Made by a program: the position numbers and the translations under genes. Source: a virus. Taken from it: DNA of 49,196 bases. The first letter of the stretch is position 1. Every line of letters starts with the position of its first letter. The stretch is taken from the IMG/VR virus record IMGVR_UViG_3300009168_000052, positions 1 through 49,196 of that record. One strand, 5' to 3'. Positions 20,647 through 29,179 of this stretch are shown here, in pieces. Below the pieces are notes generated by a model, which saw only the letters and a list, made by a program, of their open reading frames with translations, made no database searches and was not told where the DNA came from.

Positions 20647-23580
20647 ATGACACTAACCCCTCCGGCCCGGATCTACAGCTTTGAAAGCTTTGTCCGCGCC
20701 AACCCGCGCCAAACGATCCCCGGAGATAGGCTCGATGCTCAGTTCCAGGAGCTGATCGACGCCATCCGGAACATCCAGGGGGTGCTGGCGGGGATCGTCA
20801 GGTCGGATGGGGAACTCAGGTCCGGCTCGGTCAAGCCCGAGAGCCTCGATCCCAAATTCAAGACCGATCTCTTTCGGGAAATCACCAGTGAGCTGAAGGA
20901 TTTAAGGGCCCTCGTTCAAGCGACGGGCGAAGCCGCCCGGCTGGCCCGGGAGGGTGCTGTCGAGGGCCAGGCGGTCAGCGTCGAGACCAGCCTTCTGGCC
21001 CGCGCCACGGTGCTCGAACAGGATGGCGCCAGTGCCGCCGCCTATGCCCAGGCCGCCAAGGAGTGGGCCGAGCACATGCCGGATACGCTGCCGGCCGACA
21101 CCGTGGCGATCATGGGTGTCACCGGCAATCACTGGAGTTCCCGGTGGTGGGCCGAACAGGCCCTCCTCAACAGTGGCGAAGGCAGCGGCGGAGGGGGTGG
21201 AGGCGGGGGCGGCGGAGCGGGTGTCATCATCCAGGATACGCCTCCCGCGCCAGTTCACGGGCAACTTTGGTGGGAGAGCGATACCGGGGCGCTTTATGTC
21301 TCTTACAATGACGGCGACTCCCAAGCCTGGGTGCAGATCAACGGCACGGTTGCGGGAGCAGGCTCAGGGCCTGGTGCCACAGCCCCCGCCAATGCGGTCC
21401 CCCCGATTATTACCGGACCCCAGGTCCAAGGCCAGGTGCTCACCGTATCCCAAGGGGCTTGGACCAACAATCCGGTCGGTTTTATTTATCAGTGGTTTCG
21501 GGATAATATTCCCATCTTAGAGGCCACGGCGGCCGCCTATCTGCTCCAGGCGGCGGATGTCGGTGCCATCCTCTATGCCAGAATCACGGCGATCAATGGT
21601 AGCGGGGAAACGACGACGCAGAGCAATACGACGGCTGCCATCACTGGGGCGGTGCCGGCAGCGCCGGTCAATACCACCCTTCCGGCGATCACCGGAACCG
21701 AGACGCAAGGGCAGACGCTGACGGTTTCGAACGGGACCTGGTCCAACAGCCCGACGAGCTACAGCCGGCAGTGGTTTAGGGCCCAGGTCGCTATTTCAGG
21801 AGCCACCTCAGCCACTTACGTCCTTCAGGCGGCGGATGTCGGCGCCATCATCCATGCCAAAGTTACGGCGACCAATGCCTCCGGGTCAACCACGGCCCAG
21901 AGCAACTCGACCGGAGCCATTAGCGCCCCGGCCAGTGCCACACCGCTGGCGGATGCCCGCGCGGCGGCGATCATCACGCGGGGAGGCTCGCAGTCCTCGA
22001 CCACCATCGCCGCTGTTCAGCAGTTGGAGAAGGATCTCGCCCTCGCCGGGCTGACGGCCAAGTTCGTGTACTTCAATCCTCGGTGCGGCAACGATCTGAT
22101 CGCGGCCCGCTCCCCGCTCATTGCCACCAACGGCCCCGGCTATGACACCCAGGCGGGAACCTTCTCGACTTGGGTCGAAGGTAAGGGCCTGGCCGGCAGC
22201 TCCGGTGTCATGGACACCGGGGTCAATGCCGAAGCGGCCGGGCTGACGGTGATATCGTCTTGCATGGGCATCTACATGATGGAGGATGCCAAGGCTGACA
22301 CCAACAGTATCGCGGCGGATTACACTTATGTTGCCGGCGAAAAATACTTGACTTTGGTGAGTCGTGCTTACGGCCAATACATGATGTATGATGCCTTCGG
22401 GGCGACTGGAGGTAATCGCGTTCAGACGGATGCTTCGTTGTTTGCCTCGCCGGATTCGGCCAACACCAAAGGTTTGATCTGTGGGTCTCGCTACTCGGCG
22501 ACAGCCGCCATCGTCGCGCGCAACGGGGTCATTCGGGGGCTGCAAACGGCGGCGGCTGACCTTCTTCCCCCAACGGTGACGCGGAAGGTCTACACGGCTC
22601 CGGGCGCTTCGGGCGGCGATTTCATCGGTTTCGGCCTGACGCCCGATGATGTGTCTTTGCTCTTCTGGGTCTTGCACGAGTTCAACACGGCCTTAGGCCG
22701 GGCGGTGATGGCGGAAGGGGTCGTCGGGATCAACACGGTCCCGAACCCGTTCAGCTTCACCGACACGACTGGGGTCCCCCTGTCGTCGGTCTCGACCTCC
22801 AACAGCATCACCGTGTCCGGGCTGACGCCGGGTCTTAGCACTGCCGTCACCGTCACTGGGGGCGAGTACGCCAAGAACGGCGGTGCCTGGTCGACCGTTG
22901 CTACCACGGCGGTCAACACAGATACCTTTGTGGTCCGGCATACCAATTCTGCGGCCGATTTCACCGCGACCAACACAACCCTGACCATCGGCGGTGTCAG
23001 TGACACCTTCACATCCACGACGACGGGGGCCGTGGCCCCGGTTGTCTGGAACCCGGCCACGAGCAGTGATCAGATCATTGTTTCCGGCCCTCAGAACCGG
23101 ACGGCCAACCGGACGGAATTTGGCGGGCCGTATATCAGTGCGAAGTCGGCCACGTCGCAGTCAGCCGGGCTGCGATATGTCGAGGTTCATGTCGATATTC
23201 TAGGCAGCCCGGGGACGATCATCGGTGTCGCGGGGACGGCGGCAAGTTCGGGTTCCCACCCGGGAGCGGATAACTTCGGCGTTGGTTATGCTAATAACTA
23301 TGGGGCTTATTACAAAGGCGGTGGCAGTTCTGGAGTTAACAACCCCGGAGCTTATGTTACCGGCGATGTCATCGGCATCCTGGTCGATTTCACCGCCAAG
23401 ACGGTGAAGATGAACCTCAATAACGGCACGTTCAGCGCGACGGTCGACATCACCTCGCTGGGAACAGATGTTTTTATCTTTGGCGGTATAGGTGCTGGAA
23501 CAACGTCACAGGTGACGCTCAACAATCCGCTGATCTATCCGCTCCCTGGCGGGGCGACCAAGTGGGATGGCACGACATGA
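20647..23580 (+). CDS. Tail fibre / receptor-binding protein with Ig-like repeats and SPRY-like C-terminus
   Basis: A 977-residue protein. The start is ATG 20647 with GAGGA upstream; 20611 (GTG) is open but lacks a ribosome site. The N-terminal 130 residues (IYSFESFVRANPRQ, DRLDAQFQELIDAIRN) look like a virion-anchor and coiled coil. A Gly-only linker (about 179-191) leads to two Ig-like repeats (about 250-430) with matching QWFR and AADVGAI motifs. The middle part is a large domain of unknown type (about 435-700). The last 175 residues resemble a SPRY/concanavalin-like fold (GDVIGILVDFTAKTVKMNLNNG). It likely binds a surface glycan. Confidence 0.82.
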   Translation: MTLTPPARIYSFESFVRANPRQTIPGDRLDAQFQELIDAIRNIQGVLAGIVRSDGELRSGSVKPESLDPKFKTDLFREITSELKDLRALVQATGEAARLAREGAVEGQAVSVETSLLARATVLEQDGASAAAYAQAAKEWAEHMPDTLPADTVAIMGVTGNHWSSRWWAEQALLNSGEGSGGGGGGGGGGAGVIIQDTPPAPVHGQLWWESDTGALYVSYNDGDSQAWVQINGTVAGAGSGPGATAPANAVPPIITGPQVQGQVLTVSQGAWTNNPVGFIYQWFRDNIPILEATAAAYLLQAADVGAILYARITAINGSGETTTQSNTTAAITGAVPAAPVNTTLPAITGTETQGQTLTVSNGTWSNSPTSYSRQWFRAQVAISGATSATYVLQAADVGAIIHAKVTATNASGSTTAQSNSTGAISAPASATPLADARAAAIITRGGSQSSTTIAAVQQLEKDLALAGLTAKFVYFNPRCGNDLIAARSPLIATNGPGYDTQAGTFSTWVEGKGLAGSSGVMDTGVNAEAAGLTVISSCMGIYMMEDAKADTNSIAADYTYVAGEKYLTLVSRAYGQYMMYDAFGATGGNRVQTDASLFASPDSANTKGLICGSRYSATAAIVARNGVIRGLQTAAADLLPPTVTRKVYTAPGASGGDFIGFGLTPDDVSLLFWVLHEFNTALGRAVMAEGVVGINTVPNPFSFTDTTGVPLSSVSTSNSITVSGLTPGLSTAVTVTGGEYAKNGGAWSTVATTAVNTDTFVVRHTNSAADFTATNTTLTIGGVSDTFTSTTTGAVAPVVWNPATSSDQIIVSGPQNRTANRTEFGGPYISAKSATSQSAGLRYVEVHVDILGSPGTIIGVAGTAASSGSHPGADNFGVGYANNYGAYYKGGGSSGVNNPGAYVTGDVIGILVDFTAKTVKMNLNNGTFSATVDITSLGTDVFIFGGIGAGTTSQVTLNNPLIYPLPGGATKWDGTT

Positions 23581-26225
23581 CCCTTCAGGCGGCCATCACC
23601 CTCACCCCGACGCAGTTGCACGAGAATGGCCGCACCCCGGTGCTGGTCTCGGTCGGCGGCGGCAACGACTACTACGATGTCGGCAACGGCGCCTATTGGG
23701 AGTTCACCACATCCGCCAGATACGCGGAGCTGGATGGCTACGCCACAGCCCCGTTCGGGGTCGGTAACGTCACCAACCGGGTCTGCGCCCGCACCATTCA
23801 GGGGGGCAAAACCGAAGACCGGTTCTTCAAGGTGCCCGAGGCGCTCGGAGCCTTCACCGCTAAACTCCTCCTGCCCCCAGGCACTGGCAAGACGGTGCAG
23901 ATCTTCGTCCCCGCCCAATACGCCATGGGCGGGGGAGCCGCGCCGGTCGGGGTCTACCCAATCCGCGTCCGGTTCGATGCGGCAGCCACGCCCATCACCC
24001 CGGCGCTGCTCGCCAAACATGTCGTGATTTACGGCGACAGCATCGCCTCGGGCGGCGTGGGCGTGTGCCCAACTCTCTTTGGTTATGCGGGCCTGATGAA
24101 GCGGCCCGTCGCCAATGGTGGCTACAACGGCAGTGTGACGCTAGTCTCGCACGGCTACCGCCGCCTGCTGGACGATTGTGACACCGCCCCCAAACGGTCG
24201 GCCTTCGCCACCTTCCTTCTCAGTTTGAGCCCGACCCGGATCATCCTCGCCATTGGATCGAACGACCAGGCGGTGGCAGGCGGCCCGAACCTGGCGAACT
24301 TCACTGCTTACTATGGCGGCCTGTTGGACGCGATCCACGCCATCGCCCCCAACCTGCCGATTGTCTGTAGCAGCCCAATCATTCGCGATGAGACCAGCAC
24401 CACCAATGGCTGGACCATGCCGCAGGGCCGCACGGCCATCGCCGGCGAGGTGACGGCCCGCGCCGGATGGGCCACACCTCCAACTTACATGGACGGCCTG
24501 CCGATCTGTGTCTTGAGCGATTTGCCGGATCTGACGCATCCCGGCACGACCGCCAACGAGACCAAGATGCTGCCAGCCTTTCTGGCTGCGGCGACGGGAC
24601 TGACACTCAGCGCCAACACCGTCGGGGAGAATGCCGCTGTCGGGGCTAAGGTCGGAACTCTTTCGGTCGCTGGCGGCACTGGTACTTACACCTATGCGAT
24701 CACCCATATCGACGGCGTCGATCTCGCCACCAACTACTATGTCGACCCGGTGGCCGGCAGCGATGCTGCTAATGGGCTGGCGCCCAACACCCCGTTCAAG
24801 ACCTTCAGCAAGGCCCTCACTCTGATGGTGCCGGGGGATCGCTACTATGGCAAAGGCGGGACAACCGGCTACGAACATCTGAGTGCGGCGAAGGTCAAGA
24901 ATCGGACCACTATCGGGGCTTACGGTACCGGTCCCCTGACGATCTCCGGTTCACGGCGCATCGCGGCAGGGAGCATCACCGCCCAAGGTACGCCAAACGT
25001 CTATCAAGCGACGGTTACGCACGAAGTGACCACTGCTCCGCTCGGGCCGACCCACGCCAACACCTTCCACTGCATGATGTGGTCAGGTCCCGACGAGAAC
25101 AACCTGACGCATCTGACCGGGGTCTGGAGCGGGGCTAATATCGCCGCCAACATCGCGGCCCTTCAGCCGGGGCAGTTCACGTCCCACAAGCAGGGGTCGA
25201 CGGTCAAAGACCCGCGCGAGGCCACGGAGGCCACCAACCAGATCCACTATTACTTTCGGCTTCCCGCCAATGCCAATCCGACCGGCGGCGCCCCCGTCGT
25301 GCACTACGGCGAGCAACTGACGCCGCTGGCGGTCGGCTCGGGCGGTGGGTCGGCGGCCAACGTCAAAGTGGCGCGTACCGCCACAAAAGACGCGGCGGCC
25401 AACAGCGGCGGCAACGGCAATGTCCAGGCGCTGACCGATTTCAGCGCCATCGATGTCGCCGTGCATGGCTGGGTGGGCTGGGCGCGGACGATAACCAATT
25501 ACACCGCCGTCGGCCTACCGTCGGCGCGACTCATGAGCGGCGGCGGGCTCACGATCTTCTGGGGGTTTGAAACCACCTCCGGGATCGACCTGACCAACTT
25601 GAATATTAACGGCTTCGGCGGCGCCATCTACGGCCACGGCGATGGCGATCCCCTGGTCCAGCACCAGTACATGCACGTCAACACGGTCACTGTGGCGAAC
25701 TGCGATTTCGTCATTCAGGGCGACACGGCCTTCGAGACCACCCTCGCCGGGCTGACCGCCACCAATGTTTACTACCTGGTGCAGGATGCGACCAACTTCA
25801 CCGCCCGCAACGGCACGCTGACCACCTCCACCAGCTCCCCGGCCAACACCCCTCTGGTGATGCTCGGCAACGGCAATGCGACTATCGAGGACTTCACCTT
25901 CACCAAAGGCCAGGCCGGCGATGCTTTCCTCTGCATCAACAAATACGCCTACACCACCGGCAGCGACACCCATCAAGCCACCCTCACTCTGCGCCGGGTG
26001 ACGGCTCACAATTTCTATGCGTGCCCGGTGCAACCTCGCTGGAAGCGGTATCACCTGATTTTGGATCATTGCACGCTGGATCAGTTGATCCTGCCGAGTT
26101 GGGGTTCGGAATATCCATTCCTGTCGATCACCGCCACGGGCTCGACCTTCGGGCTCGGCGGTCGCTCGCTGGCCGCCATCCAGGCCGACCATCCCGGCGT
26201 GGATGGCACCAACACGATCATCTGA
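23577..26225 (+). CDS. Tail spike: GDSL/SGNH esterase plus beta-helix
   Basis: An 882-residue protein that starts within the stop of the preceding gene (ATGA at 23577). After a beta-rich N-terminus (residues 1-140), an SGNH/GDSL hydrolase domain shows block I IYGDSIASG (about 150), block III GSND (about 226) and block V DLTHPG (about 318), so it should deacylate a surface sugar. The first half of a cadherin-like repeat follows (about 345-380, NTVGENAAVGAKVGTL). From NYYVDPVAGSDAANG (about 382) onward it looks like a right-handed beta-helix of the pectate-lyase type. It probably acts at adsorption on capsule or LPS. Confidence 0.82.
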   Translation: MTLQAAITLTPTQLHENGRTPVLVSVGGGNDYYDVGNGAYWEFTTSARYAELDGYATAPFGVGNVTNRVCARTIQGGKTEDRFFKVPEALGAFTAKLLLPPGTGKTVQIFVPAQYAMGGGAAPVGVYPIRVRFDAAATPITPALLAKHVVIYGDSIASGGVGVCPTLFGYAGLMKRPVANGGYNGSVTLVSHGYRRLLDDCDTAPKRSAFATFLLSLSPTRIILAIGSNDQAVAGGPNLANFTAYYGGLLDAIHAIAPNLPIVCSSPIIRDETSTTNGWTMPQGRTAIAGEVTARAGWATPPTYMDGLPICVLSDLPDLTHPGTTANETKMLPAFLAAATGLTLSANTVGENAAVGAKVGTLSVAGGTGTYTYAITHIDGVDLATNYYVDPVAGSDAANGLAPNTPFKTFSKALTLMVPGDRYYGKGGTTGYEHLSAAKVKNRTTIGAYGTGPLTISGSRRIAAGSITAQGTPNVYQATVTHEVTTAPLGPTHANTFHCMMWSGPDENNLTHLTGVWSGANIAANIAALQPGQFTSHKQGSTVKDPREATEATNQIHYYFRLPANANPTGGAPVVHYGEQLTPLAVGSGGGSAANVKVARTATKDAAANSGGNGNVQALTDFSAIDVAVHGWVGWARTITNYTAVGLPSARLMSGGGLTIFWGFETTSGIDLTNLNINGFGGAIYGHGDGDPLVQHQYMHVNTVTVANCDFVIQGDTAFETTLAGLTATNVYYLVQDATNFTARNGTLTTSTSSPANTPLVMLGNGNATIEDFTFTKGQAGDAFLCINKYAYTTGSDTHQATLTLRRVTAHNFYACPVQPRWKRYHLILDHCTLDQLILPSWGSEYPFLSITATGSTFGLGGRSLAAIQADHPGVDGTNTII

Positions 26226-26233
26226 GAGACCTC

Positions 26234-27019
26234 ATGCCGAAGTTCGCTATCGACGGGGCCGATCTGGAAGTCGCCGGGCCGCTCGATTACGAGACGGCGA
26301 CGTTTCACGATGTGACCGTGATCGCCGACAACGGCATCGGCGACATCATCACCAGGACATTCAGGATCAATGTCACCGACGTGGCGGTCGAGACCGGCGC
26401 CGCCTCGATGCTGACCGACGAGACCGATGGCTTCGCCGTCGATTTCACCCTGAACGACGTAGCGGTGAAGCGCGCCGGCGTCATCACGTCCTCGACCGTC
26501 GCCAGCTTCTTTACCCAGGCCGGTTCCCGAGGCGCGGGGGTGTTCGCGCTGAGCGCCGCCGGACTGGCGGTCGATGGCACCGACGACATCCGCTTTCCGA
26601 AGACGGCGATCCCCTACATCCCGGCGGCTGGCACCTGGGTCGTCAATCTGAAGAGCCCCAGCCCGGCTTTCCCAGCCCGGGTCATCGGTTATGACACCGA
26701 CAGTGCAGCGCCGCTGATGCTGGGGGCGGACGGGGTGATCTATGTCTACCCGACTCCCTCCTATGTCTCGGCGACCACTGAGACCGGCACTTCTTACGTA
26801 ACCGGCGCCAAAGTCGCGGCGGCCTATGATGCGGCAGGCTGTGGGGTGCTGATCACCGGCGCGCCGATCACCACCACCGCCGACGTGATGAAAACGGTCG
26901 GGACCCTGATCTTCATCGGCAGCGTCAACAGCAGCAACCAGATGACGGGCACCATTCGCACGGTGAAGTACGTGCCGCGCAAGATGCCCCCGGCCGAACT
27001 GATCACGGAAACGACATAA
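26234..27019 (+). CDS. Tail protein beginning with the second half of a cadherin-like repeat
   Basis: A 261-residue protein starting ATG 26234, nine bases after the GDSL-spike stop. Residues 1-52 (KFAIDGADLEVAGPLDYETA, then IITRTFRINVTDV) match the second half of a bacterial cadherin-like repeat, whose first half is in the preceding gene about 1.5 kb upstream. The remainder, beta-rich, may be a jelly-roll or concanavalin-like domain (AAGTWVVNLKSP, GTLIFIGS, MTGTIRTVKYVPRKM). It overlaps nothing and ends at the start of the next tail gene. Role: an accessory tail-fibre subunit. Confidence 0.75.
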   Translation: MPKFAIDGADLEVAGPLDYETATFHDVTVIADNGIGDIITRTFRINVTDVAVETGAASMLTDETDGFAVDFTLNDVAVKRAGVITSSTVASFFTQAGSRGAGVFALSAAGLAVDGTDDIRFPKTAIPYIPAAGTWVVNLKSPSPAFPARVIGYDTDSAAPLMLGADGVIYVYPTPSYVSATTETGTSYVTGAKVAAAYDAAGCGVLITGAPITTTADVMKTVGTLIFIGSVNSSNQMTGTIRTVKYVPRKMPPAELITETT

Positions 27020-29179
27020 ATGGCTTTCGATTTTCCCAGCAGCCCGACGTTCGGCCAGGTCTTCACCGCCAACGGCATCGACTATACCTGGAATGGCTAC
27101 GCCTGGGCCGGCGGGGGCTTCCCAGCCGCTGGCACCGGCGGCGGCGGTCTGCCCGGCGGTGGCACCACCGATCAGGTTCTGACCAAGCTTTCCAATGCCG
27201 ACCAGGATGCCGGTTGGCTTCCACCCACCGGCGGCGGCGGCCCTGCTTATGTCCATCCGACCGGCGACGGCAATCTTCACGTTCCTGCCACGGGCACCGC
27301 CAACAACAACAAGGTGCTGACGGCGGGAGCAGTCCCAGGAGCCATTTCATGGCAACCGGCTGGCACTGCGGGCACGGGTGCCGGCAGCGTGCTGATCCCG
27401 GACCTCGTGACCCTGGGCGGCGTCGGTGACGGTGTCACCAACTGCGACGCGGCTTTCACGGCGGCCGAGGCCCATGCCAGCCGCCGGATCTGGGTGCCGC
27501 CGGGCACGTTCTACACGACCAAGACCAACCTGACGAAGCGCTATCTGGGCGCCGGTAAAGTCAAAGTTAACACCAATCCTAACGATGTTTACGACGATGT
27601 GGCCTTCGTCCGCACCCGTATTCCGCCCAGCCTCTATCACGGCGGCGACACCGGGCGGATGCACAATTCGTGGACCCAGATCGGCACTCCGGCCAATGCC
27701 AATATCCGCAACGGCTGGGCTGTCACCGTCCACGCCGATGGCGGCCAGACCAACGCTTACTTCGATGCCGCCGTCACCCCGTACCACGTGATCGTCGACA
27801 ACTATGCCGGGCACCCGGGCAAGTCGGCGGTTCTCAATCTCGCGGCCAACGACGGAGCCATGAGTGTTCAGGTCCAAAGCCCGGGGGTCGAGGTCGTCGT
27901 CGGCGCCAAAGTGCGGATGTGGGGCAGCGATACTATCGGTTACAGCGATTACACCGTCACCAGTGTCACCGCTGCCGGGGGCTCCAATGCCAATATCGGC
28001 CTGAACCGGGCGGTCTATGGCGGCCCCTATCCGGCCATCTATGCGTATCTGACGATCTCCGACCGCACCATGAGTGCGGCCTATTATACAGAATACGCCC
28101 ACCGGGGCGGCGGCGACGCTTATGTGCACACGGCGCAGATGGTCGTCAGCCACAAATACAATATCAATGCCGGCCAGACCTACTTTATGAACACCGCCAC
28201 CGGCGGGTTGTTCGGCGGCGCCCTGCATGGCGACGGCGCTGGGGTCTTTCTAACAGCATACGAAGTTCAATACACACAGAACCCCGATTACAACATTGCA
28301 GTCATCCACGAGCCCATCGCCTTCGACCGCGACCGGGACGACGGAGCCCATGACGGGCGCTGGTTCGGCAACCTGTTCAAGAGCCCGAGGATGGCCTGCG
28401 ACGGCGCCTGGGTGCTGGACGGGAACTGGAAAGTCGGCCTCGATACGGTCAAGGGCTTCCATCTAAGAGATGGCGCCGAACAGCCGTTCGCAGCGGTCAA
28501 TATGGGCGCGGACCAGAGGCATTATTATAACTCTGTCGCGACGCAGAGCAATTTTGGTTATTACTATAACGGTAACTTCTTCGGTGATTGTTATCGGAAG
28601 TTCGACAAAACGACAGCCACGCTCCAGGATTATGTCGGCGGGACTCTGTCCCTCGTACAAGGGCCGATCTCGACCTTCCAGAAGAAGGTCCTTGTCTGCG
28701 AAAAGGATGTCGAACATCGCGGACGGAGCTATTTTCAACAGGATGTCTCGGTCTATCGAACCCCGGCGGTGAACACCGGCTACATCTATTTAAATCAGTC
28801 CGAGACCCGGCTCGTTGGCTATGACGGCACCTACTATCACATGCCGGGCGCCGACCTGATCGTGAACGGGGTCGTCACCACCTCCGATGAGCGGCTCAAG
28901 GAGAACGTCCGCGACATGCCGGGCGGACTGACCGTGGTGGATGGCCTCCACCCGGTCGTCTTCGACTGGATCAACGGCAAGGCAAACGACCTCGGCATGA
29001 TCGCCCAGGAAGTCCAGGCCGTAGCCCCTGAGATCGTGCTCGATACCGGAGGTGACGACCATTACCTGGCAGTCGATTACGGCAAAGGCGTCGTCATGCA
29101 TCTGGTGCTGGCCGTTCAGCAGCTCTCGGCCAAGGTCGCAGCACTGGAAGCCCAGCTCGTCGCCAAGGGGCAGGGATGA
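27020..29179 (+). CDS. Tail fibre/spike with beta-helix and C-terminal S74 auto-chaperone
   Basis: A 719-residue protein. The N-terminus FPSSPTFGQVFTANGIDYTW is a common phage tail-fibre start, followed by Gly/Pro-rich linkers. A beta-helix segment begins near GGVGDGVTNCDAAFTAAEAH (about 133). The C-terminal peptidase S74/intramolecular chaperone is clear: TSDERLKENV (about 622) with the auto-cleavage serine, then GMIAQEVQAVAPEIV, YLAVDYGKGVVMH and a coiled coil. It folds and trimerises, then releases its chaperone. It overlaps the next gene by four bases. Confidence 0.88.
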   Translation: MAFDFPSSPTFGQVFTANGIDYTWNGYAWAGGGFPAAGTGGGGLPGGGTTDQVLTKLSNADQDAGWLPPTGGGGPAYVHPTGDGNLHVPATGTANNNKVLTAGAVPGAISWQPAGTAGTGAGSVLIPDLVTLGGVGDGVTNCDAAFTAAEAHASRRIWVPPGTFYTTKTNLTKRYLGAGKVKVNTNPNDVYDDVAFVRTRIPPSLYHGGDTGRMHNSWTQIGTPANANIRNGWAVTVHADGGQTNAYFDAAVTPYHVIVDNYAGHPGKSAVLNLAANDGAMSVQVQSPGVEVVVGAKVRMWGSDTIGYSDYTVTSVTAAGGSNANIGLNRAVYGGPYPAIYAYLTISDRTMSAAYYTEYAHRGGGDAYVHTAQMVVSHKYNINAGQTYFMNTATGGLFGGALHGDGAGVFLTAYEVQYTQNPDYNIAVIHEPIAFDRDRDDGAHDGRWFGNLFKSPRMACDGAWVLDGNWKVGLDTVKGFHLRDGAEQPFAAVNMGADQRHYYNSVATQSNFGYYYNGNFFGDCYRKFDKTTATLQDYVGGTLSLVQGPISTFQKKVLVCEKDVEHRGRSYFQQDVSVYRTPAVNTGYIYLNQSETRLVGYDGTYYHMPGADLIVNGVVTTSDERLKENVRDMPGGLTVVDGLHPVVFDWINGKANDLGMIAQEVQAVAPEIVLDTGGDDHYLAVDYGKGVVMHLVLAVQQLSAKVAALEAQLVAKGQG

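Follow-up and report, generated by a model that had tools for sequence, protein, structure and literature searches.

Domains of the SGNH hydrolase and pectin-lyase-like (beta-helix) types recombine in phage tail fibres and spikes, and recent shuffling among them has been documented (Smug et al. 2023, PMC10684548). Compared with the receptor-binding protein mosaicism described in that work, the locus reported here differs in that a small repeat is cut internally and its halves lie in two adjacent genes. Rhizobium phages provide similar neighbourhoods: in RHph_I46 and RHph_Y68 a cadherin-like repeat protein adjoins a pectin-lyase-fold protein, and in RHph_Y65 a cadherin/Ig-like domain is fused to a pectin-lyase-fold protein. 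Unlike in the present locus, the repeats of these phages are not cut mid-way by the helix. Fibre-type proteins from three other loci (L103, L104, and L107) share with our locus the same repeat subtype and a GDSL domain, but their cadherin repeat is intact and placed before the GDSL domain, whereas here it is split and placed after it. Two further loci (L003 and L166) contain a stand-alone GDSL tail gene, homologous to the one studied here and likewise found behind a homologous partner gene, yet both genes end after the GDSL domain and have no cadherin, helix, or C-terminal domain.

Composition of the tail module

The stretch of DNA analysed (hereafter the window) is the 49,196-base record of an uncultivated phage, in which terminase and portal genes are present. 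The terminase shares 54% identity with its counterpart in Microcystis phage Mae-Yong1326-1, which is annotated with portal, tail tubular, and DNA stabilisation proteins. The tail module occupies approximately 20.6-29.2 kb and consists, in order, of gene A (Ig-like and SPRY-like parts), gene 2 (GDSL domain, half-repeat, probable helix), gene 3 (half-repeat, C-terminal domain), and a tail gene with an S74 chaperone, which genes 2 and 3 directly precede (Table 1). Gene A has a module border of its own near 21933, the second in this region and located at a domain edge, where the Ig-like front is fused to a part that is a separate gene in L003.

Table 1. Features of the split-repeat locus (positions are those of the window).
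Feature	Position	Strand	Support
GDSL/SGNH hydrolase domain of gene 2	23577..24593	+	Pfam PF13472, 2.9e-7; 90% identity to L003, 45% to L166
Half 1 of cadherin-like repeat, behind GDSL domain, gene 2 frame	24600..24716	+	Profile columns 1-38 of 86; absent in L003 and L166
Block missing from closest relative L003, between GDSL and S74 gene	24600..27019	+	DNA alignment stops at window 24599 / L003 7040, resumes at 27020 / 7048
Left copy of imperfect direct repeat, ATATCGACGGCGTCGATCT	24706..24724	+	16/19 against right copy
Segment inferred to be inserted (1,523 bp), with probable beta-helix coding sequence, a stop, and the next ATG	24717..26239	+	Exactly between complementary halves; join THIDG/KFAIDG
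Probable right-handed beta-helix module, start TNYYVDPVAGSDAANG...	24732..26222	+	Start motif, phrog_30606, weak Foldseek match
Gene 2 stop TGA (26223), short spacer overlapping GAGAG stretch, gene 3 ATG (26234)	26223..26236	+	Sequence
Gene 3, 261 aa: repeat half 2 and C-terminal domain of unknown fold	26234..27019	+	ORF, profile columns; codon usage
Half 2 of cadherin-like repeat, gene 3	26240..26383	+	Profile columns 39-86 of 86, 61 bits
Right copy of imperfect direct repeat, CTATCGACGGGGCCGATCT	26247..26265	+	Codon register same as left copy
Downstream conserved tail gene, C-terminal S74 intramolecular chaperone	27020..29179	+	PF13884, 7.8e-13; 73% identical to L003

Gene 2 (23577-26225) encodes 882 aa and likely starts at the ATG at 23577, which overlaps the stop codon of gene A (ATGA); the GTG at 23562 was rejected as a start, being an artefact of the ORF list. 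The PF13472 match of its GDSL domain scores 31.6 bits, slightly under the curated cut-off of 32.9. The residues expected of SGNH hydrolases (Ser in GDS, Asn in the GxND block, and Asp/His in DxxH) are all found in gene 2, and the catalytic residues GDS153-155, N229-D230, and D318/H321, numbered from the ATG at 23577, are invariant across the window, L003, and L166. We regard the domain as a putative SGNH esterase, which, judging from its family, would attack esterified surface polysaccharide. The helix of gene 2 and the C-terminal domain of gene 3 may, by the same kind of reasoning from families, bind the receptor or surface polysaccharide. Gene 3 has in-frame codon usage typical of the phage genome, and its translation would be coupled to that of gene 2.

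Two complementary halves of a cadherin-like repeat

An initial annotation of the window had described the GDSL gene as carrying the first half of a cadherin-like repeat, with the second half opening the next gene in another frame, and our searches agree with it both on where the halves lie and on their forming one repeat. Half 1 (LTLSANTVGENAAVGAKVGTLSVAGGTGTYTYAITHIDG) is read with gene 2, and half 2 (KFAIDGADLEVAGPLDYETA...FRINVTDV), behind the ATG at 26234, is read in a different frame, so that the repeat is not contained in one polypeptide but in two ORFs with a stop codon and a frame change between them. When the halves were searched singly against the Pfam cadherin family, half 2 matched with an E-value of 0.12 and half 1 yielded no match. 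In contrast, the joined halves match PF00028 with an E-value of 6.7e-5 over profile positions 5-90 of 93, although the score of 23.7 bits is under the curated 28.8. The joined sequence also aligns over at least 80% of its length with intact phage repeats in 56 of 57 phage records, including Rhizobium, Caulobacter, and Brevundimonas phages.

The halves meet without gap or overlap on a profile of 28 phage repeats, half 1 filling columns 1-38 and half 2 continuing from 39 to 86, and the joined repeat spans columns 1-86 of 86 with 109 bits. A profile from 648 repeat matches places the halves at columns 1-37 and 39-87. The repeats for profile building were collected using the joined sequence, which makes the procedure mildly circular, but this should not generate the abutment, because the targets are natural uninterrupted repeats. 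Among 875 junction offset pairs, the best join was THIDG/KFAIDG, which leaves over only Met-Pro in gene 3. With 104 bits, the joined repeat outranks 97% of 109 intact viral repeats and therefore shows no sign of decay. Of the calcium-site motifs (LDRE and DxNDN), the repeat has only LDYE and NVTDV, like many phage repeats. Near full-length matches make up 716 of the 760 repeat matches collected (164 open frames), and many of the partial ones sit at contig ends or frameshifts. Two bacterial genomes contain cadherin repeats cut by apparent frameshifts (L035:6490-7518/7503-11855 and L083:3639-3851/3832-7473), in contrast to the insertion considered here.

It is improbable, in our judgement, that the halves are two independent partial repeats, derived from different genes cut near the same point and never part of one repeat, given that an abutment within one column in 87 would arise by chance in about 3% of cases by our estimate, and that both halves match best to repeats from viral contigs of one subtype. 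What speaks for separate origins, if weakly, is the GC3 of half 1 (0.66, over 41 codons), lower than that of half 2 (0.84). A comparison of shared nearest repeats was equivocal, the halves overlapping by 10, between the median of 19 for natural pairs and that of 3 for random pairs. Additionally, genes that begin inside a repeat do exist elsewhere, as at L104:12172-12909, where a gene starts within a cadherin-like repeat (columns 61-86) and the missing part is not in the preceding gene.

Neither half-repeat need still function, and the front half may serve simply as a linker. That the two halves fold in trans into one cadherin domain, docking the C-terminal domain of gene 3 non-covalently on the GDSL-helix spike, such that the insertion made a two-part receptor-binding complex, is a reading to which we give still less credence than to independent halves.

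The segment between the halves

The length of the segment separating the halves is not divisible by three. Its helix start motif, TNYYVDPVAGSDAANG, is in frame with half 1 and is common to gene starts in three other phage loci (L162-L164), where it falls within the first 14 to 45 residues of the ORF; this proximity to ORF starts suggests the capture of an almost complete gene body. We consider 24732-26222 probably a beta-helix, on the strength of the start motif and weak matches. A search of the module against PHROG returned phrog_30606 with a weak E-value of 4.3e-4, and a Pfam search of it returned no match. Structure prediction, which had been proposed for the two halves, was run on genes 2 and 3 without alignments and gave mean pLDDT values of 39 and 31, respectively, AlphaFold models too poor to be used. 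The low-confidence model of gene 2 has repeated short strands at 660-866, and Foldseek retrieved for it only weak matches to pectate lyases and SGNH enzymes, the top PDB match being a pectate lyase with an E-value of 0.089. Two viral Foldseek matches below 1e-3 were set aside, as their TM-scores were near 0.1. For the helix and the gene 3 C-terminal domain alike, peptide-pattern scans of viral contigs retrieved no homologues, and the phage collection had none at a useful E-value.

Base composition had been suggested as a marker of the insert, but the segment does not stand out: its GC3 is 0.81 and its codon score is as in the rest of the genome. Composition is thus uninformative here, and a foreign composition was rejected. 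The helix and gene 3 match the remainder of the phage genome in GC3 and codon usage. The imperfect direct repeat found at both junctions (Table 1) was equalled by 6 of 274 random region pairs, making it modestly rare, and as a hint at the entry route of the segment it is only suggestive. At the left junction, ATCGACGGCGTCGAT (window 24708-24722) forms a perfect dyad with 6-base arms, the sole such site in the window; its counterpart at the right junction is imperfect.

Since short imperfect direct repeats lie at the junctions of what is an uncultivated virus contig, a metagenome assembly chimera, in which the helix was misjoined into the repeat, was also considered. We think this very improbable: two misjoins would be required at exactly complementary points, each with the correct frame, stop, and start, and the codon usage agrees with that of the phage. 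Flanks that join into one repeat are also what a self-splicing intron or an intein would leave, its removal yielding one protein. Nevertheless, Rfam searches of both strands found no intron family (the only match was a meaningless miRNA, with an E-value of 0.32), the Pfam matches of the segment include no homing endonuclease or intein family, and the segment has a stop codon and shifts the frame, such that we consider the chance of an intron or intein close to negligible.

Relatives of the locus and its possible history

The closest relative, L003, retains the second part of gene A, the GDSL domain (90% identity), and the S74 gene, which there begins within approximately 15 bases of the GDSL stop. 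The far more distant L166, with a GDSL domain 45% identical, also has the pair of gene-A part and GDSL gene. Both stand-alone GDSL genes end just before the position of the cadherin half, a form that, being shared by two relatives at different distances, is most simply taken as ancestral. On this view the window lineage probably gained the cadherin halves, the helix, and the C-terminal modules, together or stepwise, as judged from the sequences compared; loss of the block in both L003 and L166 instead is possible and less simple. The initial annotation had taken an interrupted GDSL-cadherin fibre as the ancestor. The interruption by approximately 1.5 kb is supported, but that ancestor is not: L003 is without the whole 2.4 kb, the cadherin unit is most simply a gain as well, and a GDSL-cadherin-C-domain form would have been an intermediate at most.

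Of the comparison with relatives lacking the insert, one side was obtained, in that the block is absent in L003, and the other was not, in that an un-split GDSL-cadherin-C-domain gene was found in no genome searched. No second copy of the split appeared among 58 viral loci, 76 genome loci, and 50,697 phage records; its occurrence in relatives having no intact cadherin version was what the initial annotation had named as counting against its reading. An intact cadherin-like repeat fused to a GDSL, SASA, or other fibre domain is a frequent arrangement in related phages. A scan of 385 genomes from the class of Rhizobium chutanense, run without a positive control, found no GDSL.

The relatives L003, L006, and L008 each carry other modules ahead of the same S74 gene, and the differing fibre modules found there in L006 and L008 mark the place as a site of module exchange. 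A short N-terminal module (FDFPSNPTxGQVF...YTWNGYAW) opens several fibre genes of one phage, near 1796, 4238, and 7048 in L003 and at 27020 in the window, and is possibly a shared virion attachment signal. At L003:7048 the S74 gene has ATC in place of the window's ATG, with GGAGG five bases upstream, which may reflect a rare start codon, an error, or a later start. Between the window (27020-29179) and L003, the S74 gene differs by large in-frame indels: L003 has an extra stretch containing YVHPTGDGNLHVPATGT and is missing approximately 50 residues before the chaperone that are kept in the window and L006.

An insertion of approximately 1.5 kb inside the repeat is the simplest reading, because the complementarity is exact and there is no decay. 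As neither an intact GDSL-cadherin-C-domain form nor a second split copy was found, the complementarity carries this argument by itself; it argues that one repeat was cut and does not indicate the genome in which the cutting occurred. The main alternative is accordingly that a ready-split block of approximately 2.4 kb (half-repeat with helix, half-repeat with C-terminal domain) was imported through one recombination event between the end of the GDSL part and the beginning of the S74 gene, the split having been made earlier in another phage. The stretch 24600-27019 is missing from L003 in one piece with clean ends at gene borders, and composition is uniform across most of the block, both of which would fit a single transfer. 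We nevertheless hold it to be unlikely, though less so than the other alternatives, as no donor with the split was found in the collections named above and the undecayed joined repeat favours a recent split.

The best explanation, which we favour with some reservation, is that a phage receptor-recognition locus grew module by module, in steps. Direct observation provides the complementary halves, the absence of the block from two relatives, and intact frames with native codon usage. The starting point would have been an ancestral stand-alone GDSL/SGNH gene, putatively encoding an esterase active on a host surface glycan, to whose 3' end a cadherin-like repeat and a C-terminal binding domain would have been added. 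A complete beta-helix coding segment would then have entered the repeat between two codons, bringing a stop codon, a short spacer, and an ATG, such that the front half would now connect esterase and helix, and the back half would open a separate gene. The order of the two steps, cadherin unit before helix, is one that we infer.

Mosaicism of receptor-binding proteins is already well documented, and the window is a clean new instance of an ordinary kind. Its value is that, whereas evidence for the exchange of fibre modules normally comes from chimeric end products, the two junctions of a single event can be read here, in a surrounding repeat that is undecayed and with two relatives in which the block is absent. 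Should the split prove functional, it would illustrate the conversion of one fibre gene into a two-protein complex.
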